Below, in pieces: positions 906 through 34,434 of a stretch of DNA of 36,642 nt; positions within the stretch are counted from its first letter, which is position 1, and the number at the start of each line of letters is the position of its first letter. The position numbers and the translations under genes are program-made. Origin of the DNA: Deltaproteobacteria bacterium (GTDB taxonomy: Bacteria; Desulfobacterota; B13-G15; RBG-16-54-18); contig DAOVGN010000047.1 of the NCBI GenBank assembly GCA_030672385.1, forward strand, positions 1-36,642, given 5' to 3'. Below the pieces are notes generated by a model. That model worked only from the letters and a program-made list of their open reading frames with translations, made no database searches and was not told where the DNA came from.

Positions 906-2144
906 TTAACCAAGTTCGATCCTCTCTTCGACGCCATAGATAAGGACAACCATCAGGCTGAGGTAGTCTCTTAAGAGTCTGGTAATGAGAAAATTTTCCC
1001 TGACAAACTCGCGTGCCTTATGTCCCATTGCCTGTAGCTTATCGCGATGGCTAAGGAGATAGCGCATACGAAGGGCGGCACCTTCTGGAGCATGAACAAG
1101 AAAACCCGTGTAGTGATTAATGACCTGCAATCGGATGCCCCCGACATCTCCACCGATGACAGGTTTGCCCTTCCACATTGCCTCTGTCACCGTAAGACCA
1201 AAACCTTCCCGTAGCGATTTTTGCAGGACTATATCTGCCCCTCGTTGTAGGGCATTGATCGTTCGATCGGCCCCAGGGGGCAAAAATAGGATGTGAATGT
1301 CGGGATCATCCGCTGCTGCTACACGTACTTCTTCCAGAACAACCTCTCCTTCTGGGTCGTCTTTCGCCCCCCCTCCTGCAAGCACAAGTTGTAGCGACGG
1401 AGTGAACTTTTTTGCCAGTTTGTAGGCCTGAATCACCCCTAAGGGGTCTTTAAAGCGATCGAAACGAGATACCTGTAGTATGATGGGTAACTCAGGATCC
1501 AAACCAAACTCCTTGTACACAGAGGCAACTTCATCCTCAGCGATATCAATATTTTTCTCACTCAATGGGTCGATGCTGGGCGGGACGATAAATATGTCAT
1601 GGGGCAACGGTTGGGAAAAATCAGCAAGGGAGAAGATACTCGCATCATAGTCATTTATATAATTCTGCAAGTACTTCCATACCGGACGGTGGGGACGGCT
1701 TATGTCTATATGACAGCGCCAGATCCACTTGCCATTTCGATTCGGGCACAACTTCAACAATGGAGCAGGTTGGGGATCGTGGATAAAGACGATGTCTGCT
1801 GCTTCAAGCTTCTCACGCAGCCGCTCTGCATTCTGTGCATTGGTCTCCTCGTAGACATTAAGTAACAATTCTGGAATATCAATTGCGTTTCCCTGTAGGG
1901 CATTATGAAAACTTTTTGTACACAAAAAGAAGTCCTCGCTACCGGTTATTATCTCCCATGTGGTGTCAAGTCCCAACTGCTGCATGAGCGGTACCAGCTT
2001 TCCCAAAATCTCTGCCACACCGCCACCTTCTCGCGTCGAATTGACATGGATGACCCTCTTTCCCCTCAGTAGGGTGGTCAGTTGGCGCAAGTGTTCGATA
2101 ACGTCCTTGCCTGCTACTTCAGCATAGCGCTCGAGTTCATTCAT
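906..2144 (-). CDS. treT: GT4-family glycosyltransferase, trehalose synthase (TreT)-like
   Basis: 412 aa; HVNSTREGGGVAEILGKLVPLMQQLGLDTTWEIITGSEDFF motif, GT-B C-terminal domain (REGFGLTVTEAMWKGKPVIGGDVGGI). Confidence 0.85.
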   Translation of the reverse strand: MNELERYAEVAGKDVIEHLRQLTTLLRGKRVIHVNSTREGGGVAEILGKLVPLMQQLGLDTTWEIITGSEDFFLCTKSFHNALQGNAIDIPELLLNVYEETNAQNAERLREKLEAADIVFIHDPQPAPLLKLCPNRNGKWIWRCHIDISRPHRPVWKYLQNYINDYDASIFSLADFSQPLPHDIFIVPPSIDPLSEKNIDIAEDEVASVYKEFGLDPELPIILQVSRFDRFKDPLGVIQAYKLAKKFTPSLQLVLAGGGAKDDPEGEVVLEEVRVAAADDPDIHILFLPPGADRTINALQRGADIVLQKSLREGFGLTVTEAMWKGKPVIGGDVGGIRLQVINHYTGFLVHAPEGAALRMRYLLSHRDKLQAMGHKAREFVRENFLITRLLRDYLSLMVVLIYGVEERIELG

Positions 2145-2824
2145 GACCCTTCCTTTTCAAGATGGGCTGTACATAGTCGGGCGAGTCTTTGCCGTATCTC
2201 AGACAATGTCGTAAAGTATAGATCGATAGTCCCTATTTCTTTGCACAAATTAGCATATTTTTTACCGAAGGCAACAAGCCAGGCAGAAAAGTCATCAACA
2301 CCTTCAGGTGTACGCCTTCGAGCATCAATGAAGTGGTAAAAAATACTGCCCACCGACAATGCAGGTAAAACATTTGAGAGCATCTTTGGTTCCACGATCC
2401 GTTTTTTAGTATCGAAGACAACGATCTTGGAGCGCTTGAAATAAAACTGTTGATCAGCTTTCGACCAAGGAACCATCTCGCTCTCGTACAGGCGTTTTTC
2501 AATAACCTCTATCAACTCTTGACGGAGCGTCTCTATATCGGGAAAATCTGTGGGATCAATTACCGCCAGTCTTTCGGCGAGAACGTAATCGTGAAGGCCA
2601 TGTCGTGCCCATGCAGCAAAATCATTATTAAACTCCGGCTCCTCAAATCTCGGCAAAAGGAGTCCTCCCCAAAAGTGATAGTAGATGCAACCTGGGCGGA
2701 CAGTTACCAATCTATCCCTTAATTCTCTCAAATTCTGCGCCCGAATACCCGTCGCGATGGCAATGAGCACACAGTCTTTTACTGCAAAGGGGAGTATTGT
2801 TTGGCTGTTCGGTTCTTCCTGCAC
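2141..2824 (-). CDS. DUF5752-like protein
   Basis: 227 aa; repeated IYYHFWGG / IFYHFIDARRR ... DFAAW / DFSAW pattern; ATGA overlap with the downstream treT start. Confidence 0.7.
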   Translation of the reverse strand: MQEEPNSQTILPFAVKDCVLIAIATGIRAQNLRELRDRLVTVRPGCIYYHFWGGLLLPRFEEPEFNNDFAAWARHGLHDYVLAERLAVIDPTDFPDIETLRQELIEVIEKRLYESEMVPWSKADQQFYFKRSKIVVFDTKKRIVEPKMLSNVLPALSVGSIFYHFIDARRRTPEGVDDFSAWLVAFGKKYANLCKEIGTIDLYFTTLSEIRQRLARLCTAHLEKEGS

Positions 2825-2840
2825 AGAAAATTCCCTAAAC

Positions 2841-5030
2841 CTAATCGGTTTTCGTCGCGATAAGTTCCTCTAATAATTCAGTAACCCCATACTGTAATGG
2901 GATATTAAACCGTGCCTTTGTAGGACCTAACCCAACTCTGATAGAATATGCCGAGTCTGGAAGGAGGGCAAAGATATCTTCATCCGTTAGATCATCACCT
3001 ATTGCCAGAATGAAGTCCCACTTCTCTTTAGAAATCCATACCATTGCTGCCCTGCCTTTATTGATTCCCCTATTTTTGACCTCTATTACCTTACTGCCCT
3101 CTAAAACCCCAACATTAAGATTAGCGGTAAGGGCCAACAGCGCCTCCTTGAGCTCCAGTGCCCTTTCGGAAGCCAATTCAGATTCTGCCTTGCGATAATG
3201 CCAGGCAAGGGAAAATTCTTTCTCTTCAATAAAAGATCCGGGTGTTCTGTCCGCGTACAGCTCAAGAATAGGACATATCTCTACTTTCCAGTCATTCGTC
3301 ATAGACTCTATCAAGTTCCACTCCTTTTCTTTGATCCATGCTCCGTGTTCAGCTACCAAACCTAGGTCTATATTCCCAAACCACATTTCTAAGGTACCTT
3401 TGTCTCTACCACTGATAATTACTGTTTCATTCTGTGGGTCTCCTGAAAGTTTTTTAAGCAACCGCAGAAGGTATTCAGTAGGCTGTGCCTGCTGGGGTCT
3501 CAAAAAAAGGGGCATGAGGGTTCCATCATAATCTAACAGCAAAAGTCTTTTGGTACTGCTACCATAGTCCTTGAGTAACTTCTGCTTCAGTGCGGGAGTC
3601 AGAATCCTCGCATGCATCTCCATTTGAATTTTTTTGGTATGCAGCAATCTATCCACGAAGTCCTCTGCCCATCGCATAACATTATAGCGCTGCAGCCGTC
3701 TCTGCATCATCCTGTTAACCTCTATTTTTTCATCTTCTGGCACTACCAACGCCTTTTCCAAAGCCTCCACGAGCTCCTCTTTATTGTTGGGATTCACTAT
3801 GAGCGCTTCACCGAGCTCTTTTGATGCACCAGCCATTTCGCTCAATATCAAAACACCCCTCCCATCTGCCTTGCTTGCCAAATATTCCTTCGCTATCAGA
3901 TTCATGCCATCTCTTAAAGGGGTAACTAAGGCAACATCGGCAATACTGTATAGGGCATTGAGGGTGGGGAAACGTAAGTAGCGATAAAAATACCAGATAG
4001 GGACCCAACCGATAGTTCCATGTTCTCCATTGATCTTGCCGATGAGTTCGTCCGTTTGTTTTTTGAGCGTCCTGTAATGCTCCACTTTAGTCCGTGAGGG
4101 TACTGCGACCAAAATAAGGATCACCTTTTCTTTGTGCTGGGGATTTCTCTCTAGAAAGTCATAAAAGGCCTCCAAGCGTTGAAGGATCCCTTTGGTATAG
4201 TCTAAACGGTCTATTGACAAAATTACCTTGCGGTCACCACATTTGCTTCTCAATTTTTCTGCCGCATTTTGAACCTCTGACGTCTCTACAGCCTTTGCAT
4301 ATCTCTCGTAATCGATCCCCATAGGAAACACATCAACCCTTATGGTGCGATCCGCACCAGAAATGTAACTGACAGTGTGCTCGTAACCTAATAAGTGGCG
4401 TACCGTAGTGAGAAAATGGCGTGCGTACTCATAGGTGTGAAACCCTATTAAATCAGCGCCCAAAAACCCTCGTATGATGTCCTCTCTCCATGGAAGCAAA
4501 CGGAAGATTTCAAAAGAAGGAAAGGGGATATGGAGGAAAAAACCTATCGTTGCATCAGGCATCTTCTCCCTAACCATTTGGGGAAGAAGCATAAAATGAT
4601 AATCGTGAATCCAAATAATATCATCTTCTTCTGCAACCTCCACAATTGCATCACAAAAAAGCCTATTAACGCGCTTGTATGCCTCATATAATGATTCCTC
4701 GTAGATTACGTGTTCAGTAAAGTAGTGGTAAAGGGGCCAAATAGTCTTGTTGCAAAAACCCTCATAATAATCCACTATATCCCTTTGCGAAAGGAACACT
4801 GGATGACAATTGAATTCAGTGAGCAACTGTTCCTCAATCTGTTCTTTATCGTATCCATTTTTCTTGTTTATCGCGATTCCAGGCCATCCAATCCATAGGC
4901 TCCTGTATGATTTATAGAACGATCCCAGGCCTGTAGCCAAGCCACCTGCACTTGGTTGAAACTGTAATTCCCCTCGCTTCTTCTCAATGCTTATTGGCAA
5001 CCTGTTTGAGACGATTAATAACCTGCGCAC
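2841..5030 (-). CDS. Bifunctional trehalose-6-phosphate synthase / trehalose-6-phosphate phosphatase (OtsA-OtsB fusion)
   Basis: 729 aa, GTG start; N-terminal GT20 (LLIVSNRLPIS...IHDYHFMLLPQMVR...HIPFPS...DRLDYTKGI), C-terminal HAD phosphatase (LLLLDYDGTLMP...GDDLTDEDIF). Confidence 0.95.
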   Translation of the reverse strand: MRRLLIVSNRLPISIEKKRGELQFQPSAGGLATGLGSFYKSYRSLWIGWPGIAINKKNGYDKEQIEEQLLTEFNCHPVFLSQRDIVDYYEGFCNKTIWPLYHYFTEHVIYEESLYEAYKRVNRLFCDAIVEVAEEDDIIWIHDYHFMLLPQMVREKMPDATIGFFLHIPFPSFEIFRLLPWREDIIRGFLGADLIGFHTYEYARHFLTTVRHLLGYEHTVSYISGADRTIRVDVFPMGIDYERYAKAVETSEVQNAAEKLRSKCGDRKVILSIDRLDYTKGILQRLEAFYDFLERNPQHKEKVILILVAVPSRTKVEHYRTLKKQTDELIGKINGEHGTIGWVPIWYFYRYLRFPTLNALYSIADVALVTPLRDGMNLIAKEYLASKADGRGVLILSEMAGASKELGEALIVNPNNKEELVEALEKALVVPEDEKIEVNRMMQRRLQRYNVMRWAEDFVDRLLHTKKIQMEMHARILTPALKQKLLKDYGSSTKRLLLLDYDGTLMPLFLRPQQAQPTEYLLRLLKKLSGDPQNETVIISGRDKGTLEMWFGNIDLGLVAEHGAWIKEKEWNLIESMTNDWKVEICPILELYADRTPGSFIEEKEFSLAWHYRKAESELASERALELKEALLALTANLNVGVLEGSKVIEVKNRGINKGRAAMVWISKEKWDFILAIGDDLTDEDIFALLPDSAYSIRVGLGPTKARFNIPLQYGVTELLEELIATKTD

Positions 5031-10358: not shown

Positions 10359-12182
10359 TCAGGTCAGATCCTCAGCCTTAATCAATTCTTCAAATCTCAG
10401 GTCCATCCCCAGCATACCCACAATCTCCTCATCCTCGCTCCTGATGGGAGCGGAGACAGTAATACAGAGGGCGCCAGTGATATAGGAGGTGTAGAAATCG
10501 GTTACATGTATCTTCCCCGTCTTGAGGGGCTCAATGAACCACTCCCTGTTGGAGTAGTCCACATCGGTACCAATGTGCTCGTAATTGGCTCGATCTTCAG
10601 GACGGGTGATATTTCTGGTAATCTTGTGCCCCGTCAGGTCGATGACATAGAGGAATTGTATAAAGGGGTTCTCCTGCTCGATTTTCTCCAAAAAGGTCTC
10701 TTGGCGTGCAGGGTCCATAGGCCGTATGTCTGGATCATCCACCACCTCTTCGATAAGATGGGCGGCCATCTCATACGCCCTCTGTTTTATCAGGTCAAAA
10801 TCTGAGATGAAGAGCTCGGGAAGACGCTTCCGGGCCTTTTTCTCCATCTCCTCCGAGGAGATATCGGTGATCCTCCCCTGGTCATACTCCTCCTTTACCC
10901 ACTTATATATCTTGGCCACCCCGGGGTGCCTTTTATCCAGGCGCTCATCGCCGGTCAGGGCGAAGTAGGAATTGATCCACTGGGCGATCCCCGCGGTGCC
11001 AGATTTATCGTTTATGGTCACTGTAAGGGGCCTGTTCAGGATCTTACCGGTGTTAAAGATGTTGTAGATCTCCTCATTCTTGAGGATTCCATCGGCGTGG
11101 ATACCCGCCCTGGTGGTGTTAAACTCAGCCCCGACAAAGGGGTAATTCTTGGGAATATGTTCACCGATGTGCCTTTCATAGTAATTTCTGATCTCAGTGA
11201 TCATGGTGGGGTCGACCCCGTTCTGGTCTCCCATAAGGCTGATATATTCAATGATCAACCCTTCGATGGGGGCATTGCCTGTCCTTTCACCAAACCCAAG
11301 CAGGGTCCCGTTGACTGCGGAGCAGCCATATAGCCAGGCGGTGGTGGAATTGATGAGGACCTTATGAAAATCGTTGTGGCCATGCCACTCCAGCTCCTCC
11401 GAGGGGATACCTGCATCATCCACCAAGGCACGTATCAGCTTCGGGACGCTCCTGGGCAGGGTAGTCCCTGGATAGGGAATTCCCAATCCCAGGGTATCAC
11501 ACAATCTGATCTTCACCGATGCCCCCCCCTCCTCGGCCAGGCGCATGAGTTCCTGGGCCAAAGGGATAACAAATCCGTAGATATCCGCCCTGGTAATATC
11601 CTCAAAGTGACATCGTGGCTTTACCCCCTCCTCCAAGGCCGCCTCCACAACCCGGAGGTAATCTATCATCGCAGCCCTCCTATTCTTGCCCAGCTTCAAA
11701 AAAATGTGATAATCCGATACAGAGGTCAAGATCCCCGTCTCCTTGAGGCCCATCTCACGGACTAACTTAAAATCACCCTTATCCGCCCTGATCCAACCTG
11801 TGATTTCCGGGTACCGATGTCCTCTATCCAAACACCCCTGGACGGCCTCTTTGTCCCTATCGCTGTAGAGGAAGAACTCGGTCTGACGGATTATGCCATT
11901 GGGACCTCCTAATTTGTGGAGCATATCGTACAGGTCTACCACCTGCTGTACGGTATAGGGGGACCTGGCCTGCTGCCCATCTCTAAATGTGGTATCGGTG
12001 ATCACTATCTCTTCTGGGGGATCTATCAGCTCGACCCGGTGGTCGAATTCAACACAACATACCTCTTCATAAGGAAAGACGTCCCTGAACAAATTGGGCT
12101 CATCCACATCCTGTAGCCTGAACCTCTCAGTCTTCTTGGTGCGATTGTCGAGGAAACTCCTCCCTTTCTTCATTATCACCAT
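10359..12182 (-). CDS. HMGL/IPMS-family condensing enzyme (Re-citrate or homocitrate synthase-like) with C-terminal Cache/PDC-like domain
   Basis: 607 aa; ITDTTFRDGQQARSPYTVQQVVDLYDMLHKLGG...EWHGHNDFHKVLINSTTAWLYGCSAVNGTLLGFGERTGNAP; C-terminal FLYVIDLTGHKITRNITRP...VDYSNREWFIEPLKTGKIHVTDFYTSYITGALCITVSAPIRSEDEEIVGMLGMDLRFEEL is Cache-like. Confidence 0.85.
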   Translation of the reverse strand: MVIMKKGRSFLDNRTKKTERFRLQDVDEPNLFRDVFPYEEVCCVEFDHRVELIDPPEEIVITDTTFRDGQQARSPYTVQQVVDLYDMLHKLGGPNGIIRQTEFFLYSDRDKEAVQGCLDRGHRYPEITGWIRADKGDFKLVREMGLKETGILTSVSDYHIFLKLGKNRRAAMIDYLRVVEAALEEGVKPRCHFEDITRADIYGFVIPLAQELMRLAEEGGASVKIRLCDTLGLGIPYPGTTLPRSVPKLIRALVDDAGIPSEELEWHGHNDFHKVLINSTTAWLYGCSAVNGTLLGFGERTGNAPIEGLIIEYISLMGDQNGVDPTMITEIRNYYERHIGEHIPKNYPFVGAEFNTTRAGIHADGILKNEEIYNIFNTGKILNRPLTVTINDKSGTAGIAQWINSYFALTGDERLDKRHPGVAKIYKWVKEEYDQGRITDISSEEMEKKARKRLPELFISDFDLIKQRAYEMAAHLIEEVVDDPDIRPMDPARQETFLEKIEQENPFIQFLYVIDLTGHKITRNITRPEDRANYEHIGTDVDYSNREWFIEPLKTGKIHVTDFYTSYITGALCITVSAPIRSEDEEIVGMLGMDLRFEELIKAEDLT

Positions 12183-12377
12183 CTTTCCCCTCCTCCTGGA
12201 GTATTATATCCAAATAATAATATTTCTAATACAAAATAGTGTCAATAACTTTCCCATCGACTTTTGGGCTGAGAGGGTACATGAACCCCCCTTGGTTTTT
12301 CTCTTCAGGTTTTTGGATGAAGAGTTCGTCGAGGAATACAGGGGAAAGGAGGATGAAATAATAAAAGGGTTGGTTAA

Positions 12378-14494: not shown

Positions 14495-15685
14495 ATGTTT
14501 GGTTTATATCAAATGGCCTTTAGTAGCTTTACCTGGGGCAACATCTTAATGCTCTTTATCGGAGGAGGGCTCATTTACCTTGGCATTGCCAAGAAGATGG
14601 AGCCCGTCTTATTAATACCTATAGGGCTGGGTGTAATAATGGTCAACATACCTCTGAGTGGGCTGATGGTGTATGCTCCACCAACAGAGCCTGGTGCTAT
14701 CCCGATGCCCGTGACAGTAACAGGGGGAGCGCTAGGAGAGGCAATGGGCAGTGGGAAGGTAGGATTGCTAAATGTGCTATTTCAATTTGGGATAGCGAAC
14801 GAGATAATTCCCTTGCTTATCTTTCTTGGCGTTGGTGCCATGTCAGATTTCTCTCCAGCTATGGCTCGCCCTTCATCTTTCATGTTTGGCGCTACAGCAC
14901 AGGTAGGTGTTTTTATTGTATTTCTTATTGCTTACCTCACGGGCTTGTTTACCATGAATCAAGCTGCTAGCGTCGGTATTATCGGAGGGTCTGATGGGCC
15001 ACCTACAGTTTACCTTTGTGCCGCTTTAGCGCCTGGGTTATTGGGGCCAATTACCTTAGTAGCCTATTCCTATATGGCATTGGTGCCTATACTCCAACCG
15101 CCAGTAATAAGAGCCCTTATCCCAAAGAAGCAACGGCAAATATACATGAAGCCTCAAACACGAGAGGTTTCTAGGTTGGAAAAGGTTATCTTCCCTATAG
15201 CAGTGTTTGCAGTCGCCGCTATACTTGTCCCTAAATCAGCACCTCTTATTGGCATGCTTATGTTCGGCAATTTGCTTAATGTTACTGGTGTTACTGATAG
15301 GTTGGCGAAATCAGCAGGCGGCGTGTTTGTAGATGTATTGACATTCCTTTTGGGTATAACCGTTGGGGCCTTGATGCCGGCGGCAGTATTTCTTAATGTT
15401 AGAACCTTAGCTATTATAGGTCTGGCTATAGTAGCTTTCGCCTTTGGTACCGCTGGGGGTATTTGGGGAGCACAGATAGCAAATCTATTCTTGAAGGAGA
15501 AAATAAACCCGATTATTGGTGCTGCTGGTGTCTCCGCTGTTCCCATGGCAGCCAGAGTGGCACAAAAAGAGGGGCAAAAGGCAAACCCTAAAAACTTCTT
15601 ACTAATGCATGCTATGGGCCCTAATATGGCAGGGGCTATTTCTACTTCGGTAGTCGCTGGCATATTCTTGGGAATCCTTCACTAA
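14495..15685 (+). CDS. Sodium-pump carboxylyase decarboxylase beta subunit (OadB/MmdB/GcdB family)
   Basis: 396 aa multi-[71 protein letters not shown]. Confidence 0.95.
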   Translation: MFGLYQMAFSSFTWGNILMLFIGGGLIYLGIAKKMEPVLLIPIGLGVIMVNIPLSGLMVYAPPTEPGAIPMPVTVTGGALGEAMGSGKVGLLNVLFQFGIANEIIPLLIFLGVGAMSDFSPAMARPSSFMFGATAQVGVFIVFLIAYLTGLFTMNQAASVGIIGGSDGPPTVYLCAALAPGLLGPITLVAYSYMALVPILQPPVIRALIPKKQRQIYMKPQTREVSRLEKVIFPIAVFAVAAILVPKSAPLIGMLMFGNLLNVTGVTDRLAKSAGGVFVDVLTFLLGITVGALMPAAVFLNVRTLAIIGLAIVAFAFGTAGGIWGAQIANLFLKEKINPIIGAAGVSAVPMAARVAQKEGQKANPKNFLLMHAMGPNMAGAISTSVVAGIFLGILH

Positions 15686-32106: not shown

Positions 32107-34434
32107 ATGAATAAACAATTCGAAACCCGAAATATGCAATCCGCAATTGTTAAAGTCCTGTTGATCGAGGACAGCTCCAAATACACTGAAGTAATACGAA
32201 TAATGCTGGACAGGGTACAGGGCACCCAATTTGATTTGGTGTGTGCCAGACGGCTCTCGAGGGGACTGGAAAGCCTTGGCGAGGGAGGGGTCGATGTGGT
32301 CCTGTTAGATCTCAAGTTGCCAGACAGCCAGGGGCTTGACACGTTCGACAGGGTGTATGCACAAGCACCAAGCGTGCCGATCATCGTGATGACTGTAACT
32401 GACAATGATGAGCTGGCAGTAAGAGCAGTTCAGAAAGGCGCGCAGGACTATCTGGTCAAAGATCAGGTGGATAGCAAATTGCTGGTGCGCGCCATACGCT
32501 ATGCCATCGAGCGCAAGCGGGTGGAGGAAGCGCTGAAGGAAACAAACATATTTTTGCAGAACATCTTGGAAAGTTCTTCCTATATTTCCATCTTGTACAC
32601 CGATCTGGAGGGCAATATCCTCTATTGGAATAAAGGCGCTGAAGACATGTTTGGATACAAGGTTGAAGAGGTCGTTGGCCGTTGTAAAACAGATATATTA
32701 TACCCAGATGATGAAGAGGAGACAAAAAAGAAAATAGAAGAGGTCAGGTCATTTATATTGAAAAATAAACAGGGGATAAGTTGCGAGGTTTGGGAGGTAA
32801 CGAAAGATGGACGCAAGCTATGGGTCAATTTGAATTTGACCCCCAGGTTCGATGAGAATGACCAGGTGATAGGGATTTTAGGTATTGGACAAGATATCAC
32901 CGAGCGCAAGCGGATGGACGAGATGCTGCTAACAGCTGCTCAGGAATGGCGGACTACGTTCGATGCCATTAGCGATGTTATTTGTCTGATCGACTCAGAA
33001 AGAAGGATTATTCGATGCAACAATGCTATGACGCATTTCCTTCAAAAATCGTTCAATGATATTATCGGCCGCACCTGTTGTAAACTTGTGCACGGCACGT
33101 CAGAACCCATCGAAGGTTGTCCCTTTGAGCGCATGCAGAAGACTCGCCGCAGCGAGACCATGGTTTTGCCAATAGATGCCCGGTGGTTCAACATCTCTGT
33201 TGATCCGTTGCTGGATGAAGGCGGCAATCTCATTGGTGGGGTTCATATTATGTCCGATATCACCAAGGAGAAAGAGATAGACAGGATGAAATCTGAGCTT
33301 ATCTCTAAGGTATCTCATGAATTGCGCACTCCTTTAACTACAATTAAAGAGGGAATTTCCCTTGTCTTCGATGGCACCTTGGGTCAAATCAACGCAGATC
33401 AGGAGGAAGTTCTCGCGATAGCCAAGAAAGATATTGATCGGTTAGCCCGATTAATAGGGAATCTTTTAGATGTCTCCAAGATTGAAACCGGGAAAGTGGA
33501 GTTGAAAAAATCATCGGTGAACATCTCATCTTTAGTCGAAGAGGTGCTCGTGTCATTTCAGAAACAAATCGAGAAAAAAAACATTACGCTCGAGACTCGC
33601 TTGAAGGGAGAAATGCCACCTCTCTATATTGATCCAGATAAGATCAGCCAGGTCCTGACCAATTTAGTTTCAAACAGCATTAAGTTCACCCCCGAAAGTG
33701 GCCACATTACGTTAGGGATAAAAGATAAAAGGGAAGAGATAGAGATAAGCGTTAAGGATACAGGTTTAGGAATTGCCAGAGAAAATATTCCTGAGTTATT
33801 TGATCGGTTCTCTCAGTTTAATCGAGTCTATGGTCCAGGAGAAAGGGGAACGGGGTTAGGATTGGCCATATCGAAGGAGATCGTCGAGATGCATGGAGGG
33901 AAGATATGGGTTGAGAGTGAGCTTGGTAAAGGAAGCACATTTACTCTTAGCTTACCCAGACTCAGTCAGGATGAGATCTTTCGGGAATATCTGACCAACG
34001 GGTTAAGAGAGGCAGAAGTGAAGGATTGCCCCTTGTCCCTGATCGTTATTTGTATGAAGAATGTTGAAAAGATTGAAAGAGATTATACAGATGTAAAGGT
34101 CTTTGCGATCTTGCAGGAGACTGAAGAAGTCATTGTGAGGACCCTGCGCCGAAAGAGTGATATCGTCTCCCGATATAAATATGGTGAGATTATCATAGCG
34201 ATATTGATGGATACGGCGAGGAGAAACGCCCTCTCTATTAAGGAGAGGATTGGGCAGGCGATTGAGGCTGAGATTCGAGAGAAAGGATGGCCAAAAGATA
34301 TAGAACTCATCTTAGATGTCGTCACGTATCCTGATGATGCCACGAATGAGGTGGATATGATTAATAAAATCTCGAAGGGGTTTTGGGTTGAGGAAATAAG
34401 TGACGAAGGAAGTAAAGGAGGAAAAGATGGATAA
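32107..34434 (+). CDS. Sensor kinase: REC-PAS-PAS-HisKA-HATPase with C-terminal degenerate GGDEF-like domain
   Basis: 775 aa; DVVLLDLKLPDSQGLDTFDR; KVSHELRTPLTTIKEGISLV; NLVSNSIKFTPESG; GERGTGLGLAISKEIVEMHGGKIWVES; tail RRKSDIVSRYKYGEIIIAILMDTARRNAL. Confidence 0.95.
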   Translation: MNKQFETRNMQSAIVKVLLIEDSSKYTEVIRIMLDRVQGTQFDLVCARRLSRGLESLGEGGVDVVLLDLKLPDSQGLDTFDRVYAQAPSVPIIVMTVTDNDELAVRAVQKGAQDYLVKDQVDSKLLVRAIRYAIERKRVEEALKETNIFLQNILESSSYISILYTDLEGNILYWNKGAEDMFGYKVEEVVGRCKTDILYPDDEEETKKKIEEVRSFILKNKQGISCEVWEVTKDGRKLWVNLNLTPRFDENDQVIGILGIGQDITERKRMDEMLLTAAQEWRTTFDAISDVICLIDSERRIIRCNNAMTHFLQKSFNDIIGRTCCKLVHGTSEPIEGCPFERMQKTRRSETMVLPIDARWFNISVDPLLDEGGNLIGGVHIMSDITKEKEIDRMKSELISKVSHELRTPLTTIKEGISLVFDGTLGQINADQEEVLAIAKKDIDRLARLIGNLLDVSKIETGKVELKKSSVNISSLVEEVLVSFQKQIEKKNITLETRLKGEMPPLYIDPDKISQVLTNLVSNSIKFTPESGHITLGIKDKREEIEISVKDTGLGIARENIPELFDRFSQFNRVYGPGERGTGLGLAISKEIVEMHGGKIWVESELGKGSTFTLSLPRLSQDEIFREYLTNGLREAEVKDCPLSLIVICMKNVEKIERDYTDVKVFAILQETEEVIVRTLRRKSDIVSRYKYGEIIIAILMDTARRNALSIKERIGQAIEAEIREKGWPKDIELILDVVTYPDDATNEVDMINKISKGFWVEEISDEGSKGGKDG

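Follow-up and report, generated by a model that had tools for sequence, protein, structure and literature searches.

The window analysed here is the whole stretch of 36,642 nucleotides of contig DAOVGN010000047.1, from a genome with a completeness of 93%. On the minus strand, an open reading frame with its ATG at 12182 and its stop at 10359 encodes a protein in which a condensing enzyme is joined to a C-terminal Cache domain. The gene is present as a single copy in the genome, and two further HMGL-family genes are found elsewhere, one of them adjoining a LeuC-type gene. A Shine-Dalgarno sequence and a strong sigma-70-type promoter match lie just upstream, so the fused gene can be transcribed on its own. 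Neither Rfam matches nor riboswitches have been found in the window. The features of the gene and of the encoded domains are as follows.

12217..12245, minus strand: sigma-70-type promoter match TTGACA-N17-TATTAT, 11/12 by consensus match alone, ~35–63 nt upstream of the start codon
12192..12197, minus strand: Shine-Dalgarno AGGAGG, 9 nt ahead of the ATG
10359..12182, minus strand: fused gene for a Re-citrate-synthase-type condensing enzyme with a C-terminal Cache, 607 aa (ORF, Pfam)
11184..12008, minus strand: HMGL-like DRE-TIM barrel, residues 59–333, with invariant R67 D68 and H267-x-H269 (Pfam, alignment)
10809..11183, minus strand: post-barrel subdomain, residues 334–458, with a weak HCS_D2 match and invariant H362 (Pfam, alignment)
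10671..10802, minus strand: two helices linking the enzyme to the Cache, residues 461–504 (AlphaFold models)
10383..10679, minus strand: single Cache/PDC module, residues 502–600 (Pfam, profile, AlphaFold, Foldseek)
10536..10547, minus strand: R546-x-W548-F549, aligned to PctA R126-x-W128-Y129 and KinD R131, putative carboxylate side of the pocket (profile alignment)
10491..10493, minus strand: Y564, aligned to PctA Y144 (profile alignment)
10401..10403, minus strand: D594, invariant, aligned to PctA D173, putative amine side of the pocket (profile alignment)

The condensing enzyme spans residues 59–458 and is of the HMGL/DRE-TIM type. The Pfam HMGL-like model (PF00682) matches residues 59–333 with E = 1.9e-28, profile and structure searches agree, and the metal-binding and catalytic residues of the barrel are present, with R67, D68, H267, H269, and H362 invariant. 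Residues 502–600 match MCP-like_PDC_1 (PF22673) over the cut-off (E = 3.1e-14), and residues 478–600 match dCache_1 slightly under it (E = 3.7e-11). The full-length AlphaFold model has a pLDDT of 87.9 and a pTM of 0.72, and the tail folded alone with 61 relatives reaches 91.6 and 0.86. Foldseek with the tail model places KinD at the top (E = 8e-10), followed by Tlp3, DctB, YkuI, Mlp24, PctC, and CtaA. Also, a tail profile search retrieves Tlp3, KinD, PctA, PctC, and YkuI from sequence alone. By fold and by profile match, the tail is a member of the Cache/PDC superfamily.

The maximum 19-residue hydropathy is 1.03 in the fused protein (1.64 is the maximum for the family), so the protein has no TM segment and membrane anchoring is ruled out. 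The tail does not have the extracytoplasmic placement with flanking TM segments that is typical, although not universal, among Cache/PDC domains. An earlier note on this DNA had described an HMGL/IPMS-family condensing enzyme carrying a C-terminal Cache/PDC domain in a soluble protein; both domains and the solubility are borne out. It had also named a LeuA-type regulatory domain as the finding that would speak against a Cache, and this identity is ruled out since no LeuA C-terminal domain is found in the Pfam search. Tail-less homologues stop at about residue 445–465 in the numbering of the fused form. The extra part in the fused form is therefore the two linker helices together with the Cache.

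The earlier note had left the enzyme between a Re-citrate and a homocitrate synthase, and several lines of evidence argue strongly for the former as the identity of the catalytic half. Si-citrate synthase (PF00285) has no match in the 93%-complete genome; the same model finds a match in 13 of 14 control genomes. The aconitate hydratase and NADP-isocitrate dehydrogenase (IDH) equivalog models score above their curated cut-offs in the genome. Among 395 genomes of the phylum, 41 carry both the fused gene and PF00285, 152 only the fused gene, 173 only the Si-type enzyme, and 29 neither (193 and 214 genomes in total for the fused-type enzyme and PF00285). The resulting odds ratio of 0.045 indicates that the two are largely mutually exclusive, and at the family level the odds ratio is 0.10 (p = 1.3e-6) with relatedness not fully removed. 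Genome content and exclusion statistics thus agree with a replacement of Si-citrate synthase upstream of aconitase and IDH, although the 41 genomes with both enzymes count against a strict replacement. The best explanation is that the Re-citrate synthase is the only detected citrate synthase of the organism. In Syntrophorhabdus-type loci and one Nitrospirota locus an aconitase-family gene lies 3–6 nt downstream of the fused gene, and in an Omnitrophota locus an IDH-like gene lies 12 nt downstream. The catalytic half is 62–63% identical to Planctomycetota proteins, and a Planctomycetota candidate (Kuenenia) has been reported to be 55.1% identical to the verified Re-citrate synthase of Clostridium kluyveri (PMC8027424); the tie to verified enzymes is therefore one of two steps, via the Planctomycetota proteins.

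The barrel is similar to those of homocitrate, citramalate, and isopropylmalate synthases, and the catalytic half could in principle be one of these rather than a citrate synthase. The nearest curated models are indeed nifV homocitrate synthase and isopropylmalate synthase, the solved relatives of the catalytic half are citramalate and homocitrate synthases, and the aconitase adjoining the fused gene in Syntrophorhabdus-type loci belongs to the LeuC/homoaconitase family. However, the nifV model reaches 145 bits against a cut-off of 463, a second homocitrate synthase model (NifV/LysS) reaches 110 bits against 414, and the LeuA isopropylmalate synthase and citramalate models all remain far under their cut-offs. 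The two other HMGL-family genes, one beside the LeuC-type gene, the presence of aconitase and IDH in a genome devoid of Si-citrate synthase, and the mutual exclusion described above all speak against this assignment, which is highly unlikely.

In the window, fumarase, malic enzyme, and acyl-CoA synthetase genes neighbour the fused gene on the same strand and fit a TCA role. The earlier note had relied on these neighbours, which are present as described; the neighbourhood is local and not conserved, with fumarase-type genes near the fused gene in only 3–4 of 72 loci. Across the phylum, the gene that is conserved next to the fused gene is aspS, frequently with hisS ahead of it. The aspS gene (aspartyl-tRNA synthetase) precedes the fused gene in 33 of the 72 loci, at a distance of ≤500 nt in 28 of these. 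These loci lie within L004–L058 (for example, L017:8148–9977 and L029:6902–8200), and the arrangement is absent from the window. This linkage could conceivably reflect a tie of aspartate use to the entry of oxaloacetate. The window also contains a minus-strand trehalose cluster at 906–5030, formed by a TreT-like glycosyltransferase, a DUF5752 protein, and a fused trehalose-phosphate synthase/phosphatase. On the plus strand are a Na+-transporting oxaloacetate-decarboxylase beta-type subunit (14495–15685), divergent from the citrate synthase region, and a Receiver-PAS-PAS-histidine kinase (32107–34434) with a weak GGDEF match (1.6e-6) at its C-terminus.

The Cache fusion, which the earlier note had described from this one gene, is common and widespread in anaerobic bacteria. 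It is carried by about half of the genomes of the phylum (193 of 395), and the ~150 matches listed for the phylum, out of a set with about 40 more, all extend through the tail. A gene-fusion artefact of one genome is ruled out because ~190 other genomes carry the fused gene. The fusion is present in roughly nine phyla. In Nitrospirota, 26 of the 31 matching genomes have it in one piece, the rest being broken by contig ends or unresolved, and further fused copies are found in Spirochaetota, Lentisphaerota, Elusimicrobiota, Omnitrophota, Margulisiibacteriota, Fibrobacterota, and others. A tail common to all homologues, which the earlier note had said would weigh against its reading, is not what is seen: the Planctomycetota matches (12 of 149 genomes) are all tail-less, and of the copies in Spirochaetota 11 are fused and 20 lack the tail. 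Two Spirochaetota genomes, G559 (L102, L113) and G595 (L099, L116), have one fused and one tail-less copy each. The copies of each genome sit in different parts of the tree and would form natural regulated/unregulated pairs. On Deinococcus plasmids (L125, L126), a tail-less relative with ~40% identity is found beside a citrate/2-methylcitrate synthase gene, and in L126 this relative is split into two CDS.

Outside the enzyme family, the tail has its closest relatives in chemoreceptors, in which an MCPsignal domain is followed by a C-terminal Cache and several of which have no TM segment, and in YkuI-type EAL proteins. In both groups the tails seem to act as sensors on the cytoplasmic side. Chemoreceptors of this C-terminal Cache type are found at L150–L162, where the YkuI_C and dCache_1 profiles both match, which suggests one cytoplasmic Cache group. 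The Re-citrate-synthase tails form one branch against the chemoreceptor tails (SH-aLRT 99.9). For the catalytic domains, a topology with all fused forms in one clade is not rejected (p-AU 0.28), and independent fusions in different phyla are not needed to account for these two results. The catalytic tree has a weak backbone and the parsimony count gives five changes, so the order of losses and transfer is not resolvable. The sequence relationships are most simply, though not conclusively, explained by a single fusion event with later losses or transfers.

In the putative pocket, 47 fused proteins show no variation at W548, S566, L572, and D594 and very little at F549, T569, and T575, and 93% of them retain R546. 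An amino-acid motif, [YFWL]x4[RK]xW[YFW]-x13-17-[YFW]-x27-34-D, has been described for Cache domains, in which R and W touch the carboxylate of the ligand and the second aromatic and D touch the amine (PMC11237719). Five of its six positions are present in 76 of 86 members, including the studied protein, compared to 0.19% of shuffled tails. The complete motif is found in 11 of the 86, mostly Desulfovibrio relatives (0.017% of shuffled tails), and 10 of the 86 are without the motif core. The studied protein lacks the first aromatic (V541) and hence the full dCache_1AA motif, and its tail is a single module of ~100 residues rather than the double Cache module of that family. The chemoreceptor tails share the same 5-position core. 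The presence in the tail of W and D, both absent from KinD, makes an amino acid the likelier ligand class, with a plain carboxylate as the main rival. We assign the ligand class as an amino acid only tentatively from these residues, and glutamate or aspartate specifically is a doubtful choice. Ligand-dependent regulation by the tail, whatever the ligand class, seems probable.

Based on these observations, a mechanism can be proposed. The Re-citrate synthase would condense acetyl-CoA and oxaloacetate to citrate, which would be converted via aconitase and NADP-isocitrate dehydrogenase to 2-oxoglutarate and hence to glutamate. The Cache, in the position held by the regulatory domains of isopropylmalate synthase and some homocitrate synthases, would bind a small metabolite with a carboxylate group, an L-amino acid (for example, glutamate or aspartate) being the most probable ligand. 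The predicted contacts are R546 and W548 to the carboxylate, and Y564 and D594 to the amine. Ligand binding would then set the activity of the enzyme allosterically, as a form of end-product feedback. Taken as a whole, a Re-citrate synthase under allosteric control by a cytoplasmic Cache that probably binds an L-amino acid is a reasonably likely reading of the protein.

Other functions of the tail have to be weighed against this reading. The Cache could sense a carboxylate other than an amino acid (pyruvate, acetate, propionate, or a C4 acid), which would imply feed-forward or substrate-linked control. KinD, the closest fold, has been solved with pyruvate and not with an amino acid, its R131, mutated in two deposited structures, aligns with R546, and it has the stretch S/T-D-x-Y-x-S-x-I-T-G in common with the tail. 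DctB with succinate or malonate is also among the Foldseek matches. On the other hand, the invariant D594 has no acidic counterpart in KinD and the invariant W548 is replaced by F there, and the combination of D, W, and R is the amino-acid pattern, which makes this alternative rather unlikely. Somewhat less likely again is a tail that serves oligomerisation or stability as a folded module no longer able to bind a ligand. Cache and PAS domains can act as dimerisation parts, and several lineages manage without the tail. However, the most conserved positions of the tail across the roughly nine phyla correspond to pocket-lining residues of relatives with solved structures, and the chemoreceptor tails retain these positions as well. 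The tail-less homologues seem to work without a Cache, which counts against the favoured reading. The kinship with these tails, the nearest relatives of the enzyme tail, would also fit docking of the enzyme to a signalling protein, such as a cytoplasmic chemoreceptor, in place of metabolite binding. Most of the genomes searched with the tail profiles, the studied one included, have no such receptor over the threshold, and conservation is seen in pocket residues and not in a surface patch; docking is the least probable of the explanations considered.

The control of the Re-citrate synthase by a Cache, as favoured above, can be compared with known systems. The Re-citrate synthases (EC 2.3.3.3) of Clostridium kluyveri, Syntrophus aciditrophicus, Dehalococcoides, and Heliomicrobium are likewise DRE-TIM enzymes that replace Si-citrate synthase in anaerobes and, like the fused enzyme, are related to homocitrate and isopropylmalate synthases. 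No Cache is mentioned for them in the open-access papers covered, in contrast to the C-terminal Cache of the studied enzyme. The fused form is present in Syntrophaceae genomes (L025, L029, L032), and the verified enzyme of Syntrophus could thus also have a Cache. LeuA isopropylmalate synthase and lysine-regulated homocitrate synthase share the catalytic fold, a C-terminal regulatory region, and a place at the first committed step of an amino-acid pathway, but they are regulated through a LeuA-type or RAM domain, or at the active site.

The Cache domains of KinD, Tlp3, PctA/PctC, and DctB (PF22673/PF02743) have the fold of the tail and its pocket positions (R/K, W, an aromatic, and D), but they are extracytoplasmic and belong to kinases and chemoreceptors, whereas the studied Cache is single, soluble, and attached to a metabolic enzyme. 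The C-terminal Cache of chemoreceptors and the YkuI_C domain of EAL proteins are cytoplasmic like the tail, and the chemoreceptors share its core signature. Their output is signalling, while the partner of the tail is an enzyme and the tail has its own branch. Among published cases, the closest is an amine-type dCache_1AM of Actinobacteria that stands alone inside the cell and has been called a rare example of repurposing (PMC10104139). It is an intracellular Cache like the tail, but it has a transcription-factor operon partner, an amine motif, and no enzyme fusion.

In the open-access literature searched, no paper has been found that pairs a Cache domain with the Re-citrate-synthase enzyme class. 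The Pfam matches are over threshold, so automatic annotation already displays the Cache domain. A description of it as a regulatory fusion conserved between lineages is absent from the literature as far as this is searchable. A possible, still tentative, account is that the Cache module has been taken over as an allosteric domain. A cytoplasmic Cache of the amino-acid type, which anaerobes also use in cytoplasmic chemoreceptors, would then directly gate a citrate synthase. The two would have been joined, probably in a single event, and the fusion retained in some lineages and lost in others among about nine phyla.

The route to 2-oxoglutarate and glutamate begins with citrate synthase, and no description of the regulation of the Re-type enzyme in anaerobes has been found in the literature searched. 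Homologues that naturally lack the tail, among them those in the two genomes with both forms, can serve directly as controls. Should the tail function as proposed, a defined allosteric site would be available in sulfate reducers, in syntrophs, and in many lineages not yet cultured, and the role of Cache domains, so far known as sensors that face outwards, would extend to the regulation of enzymes.
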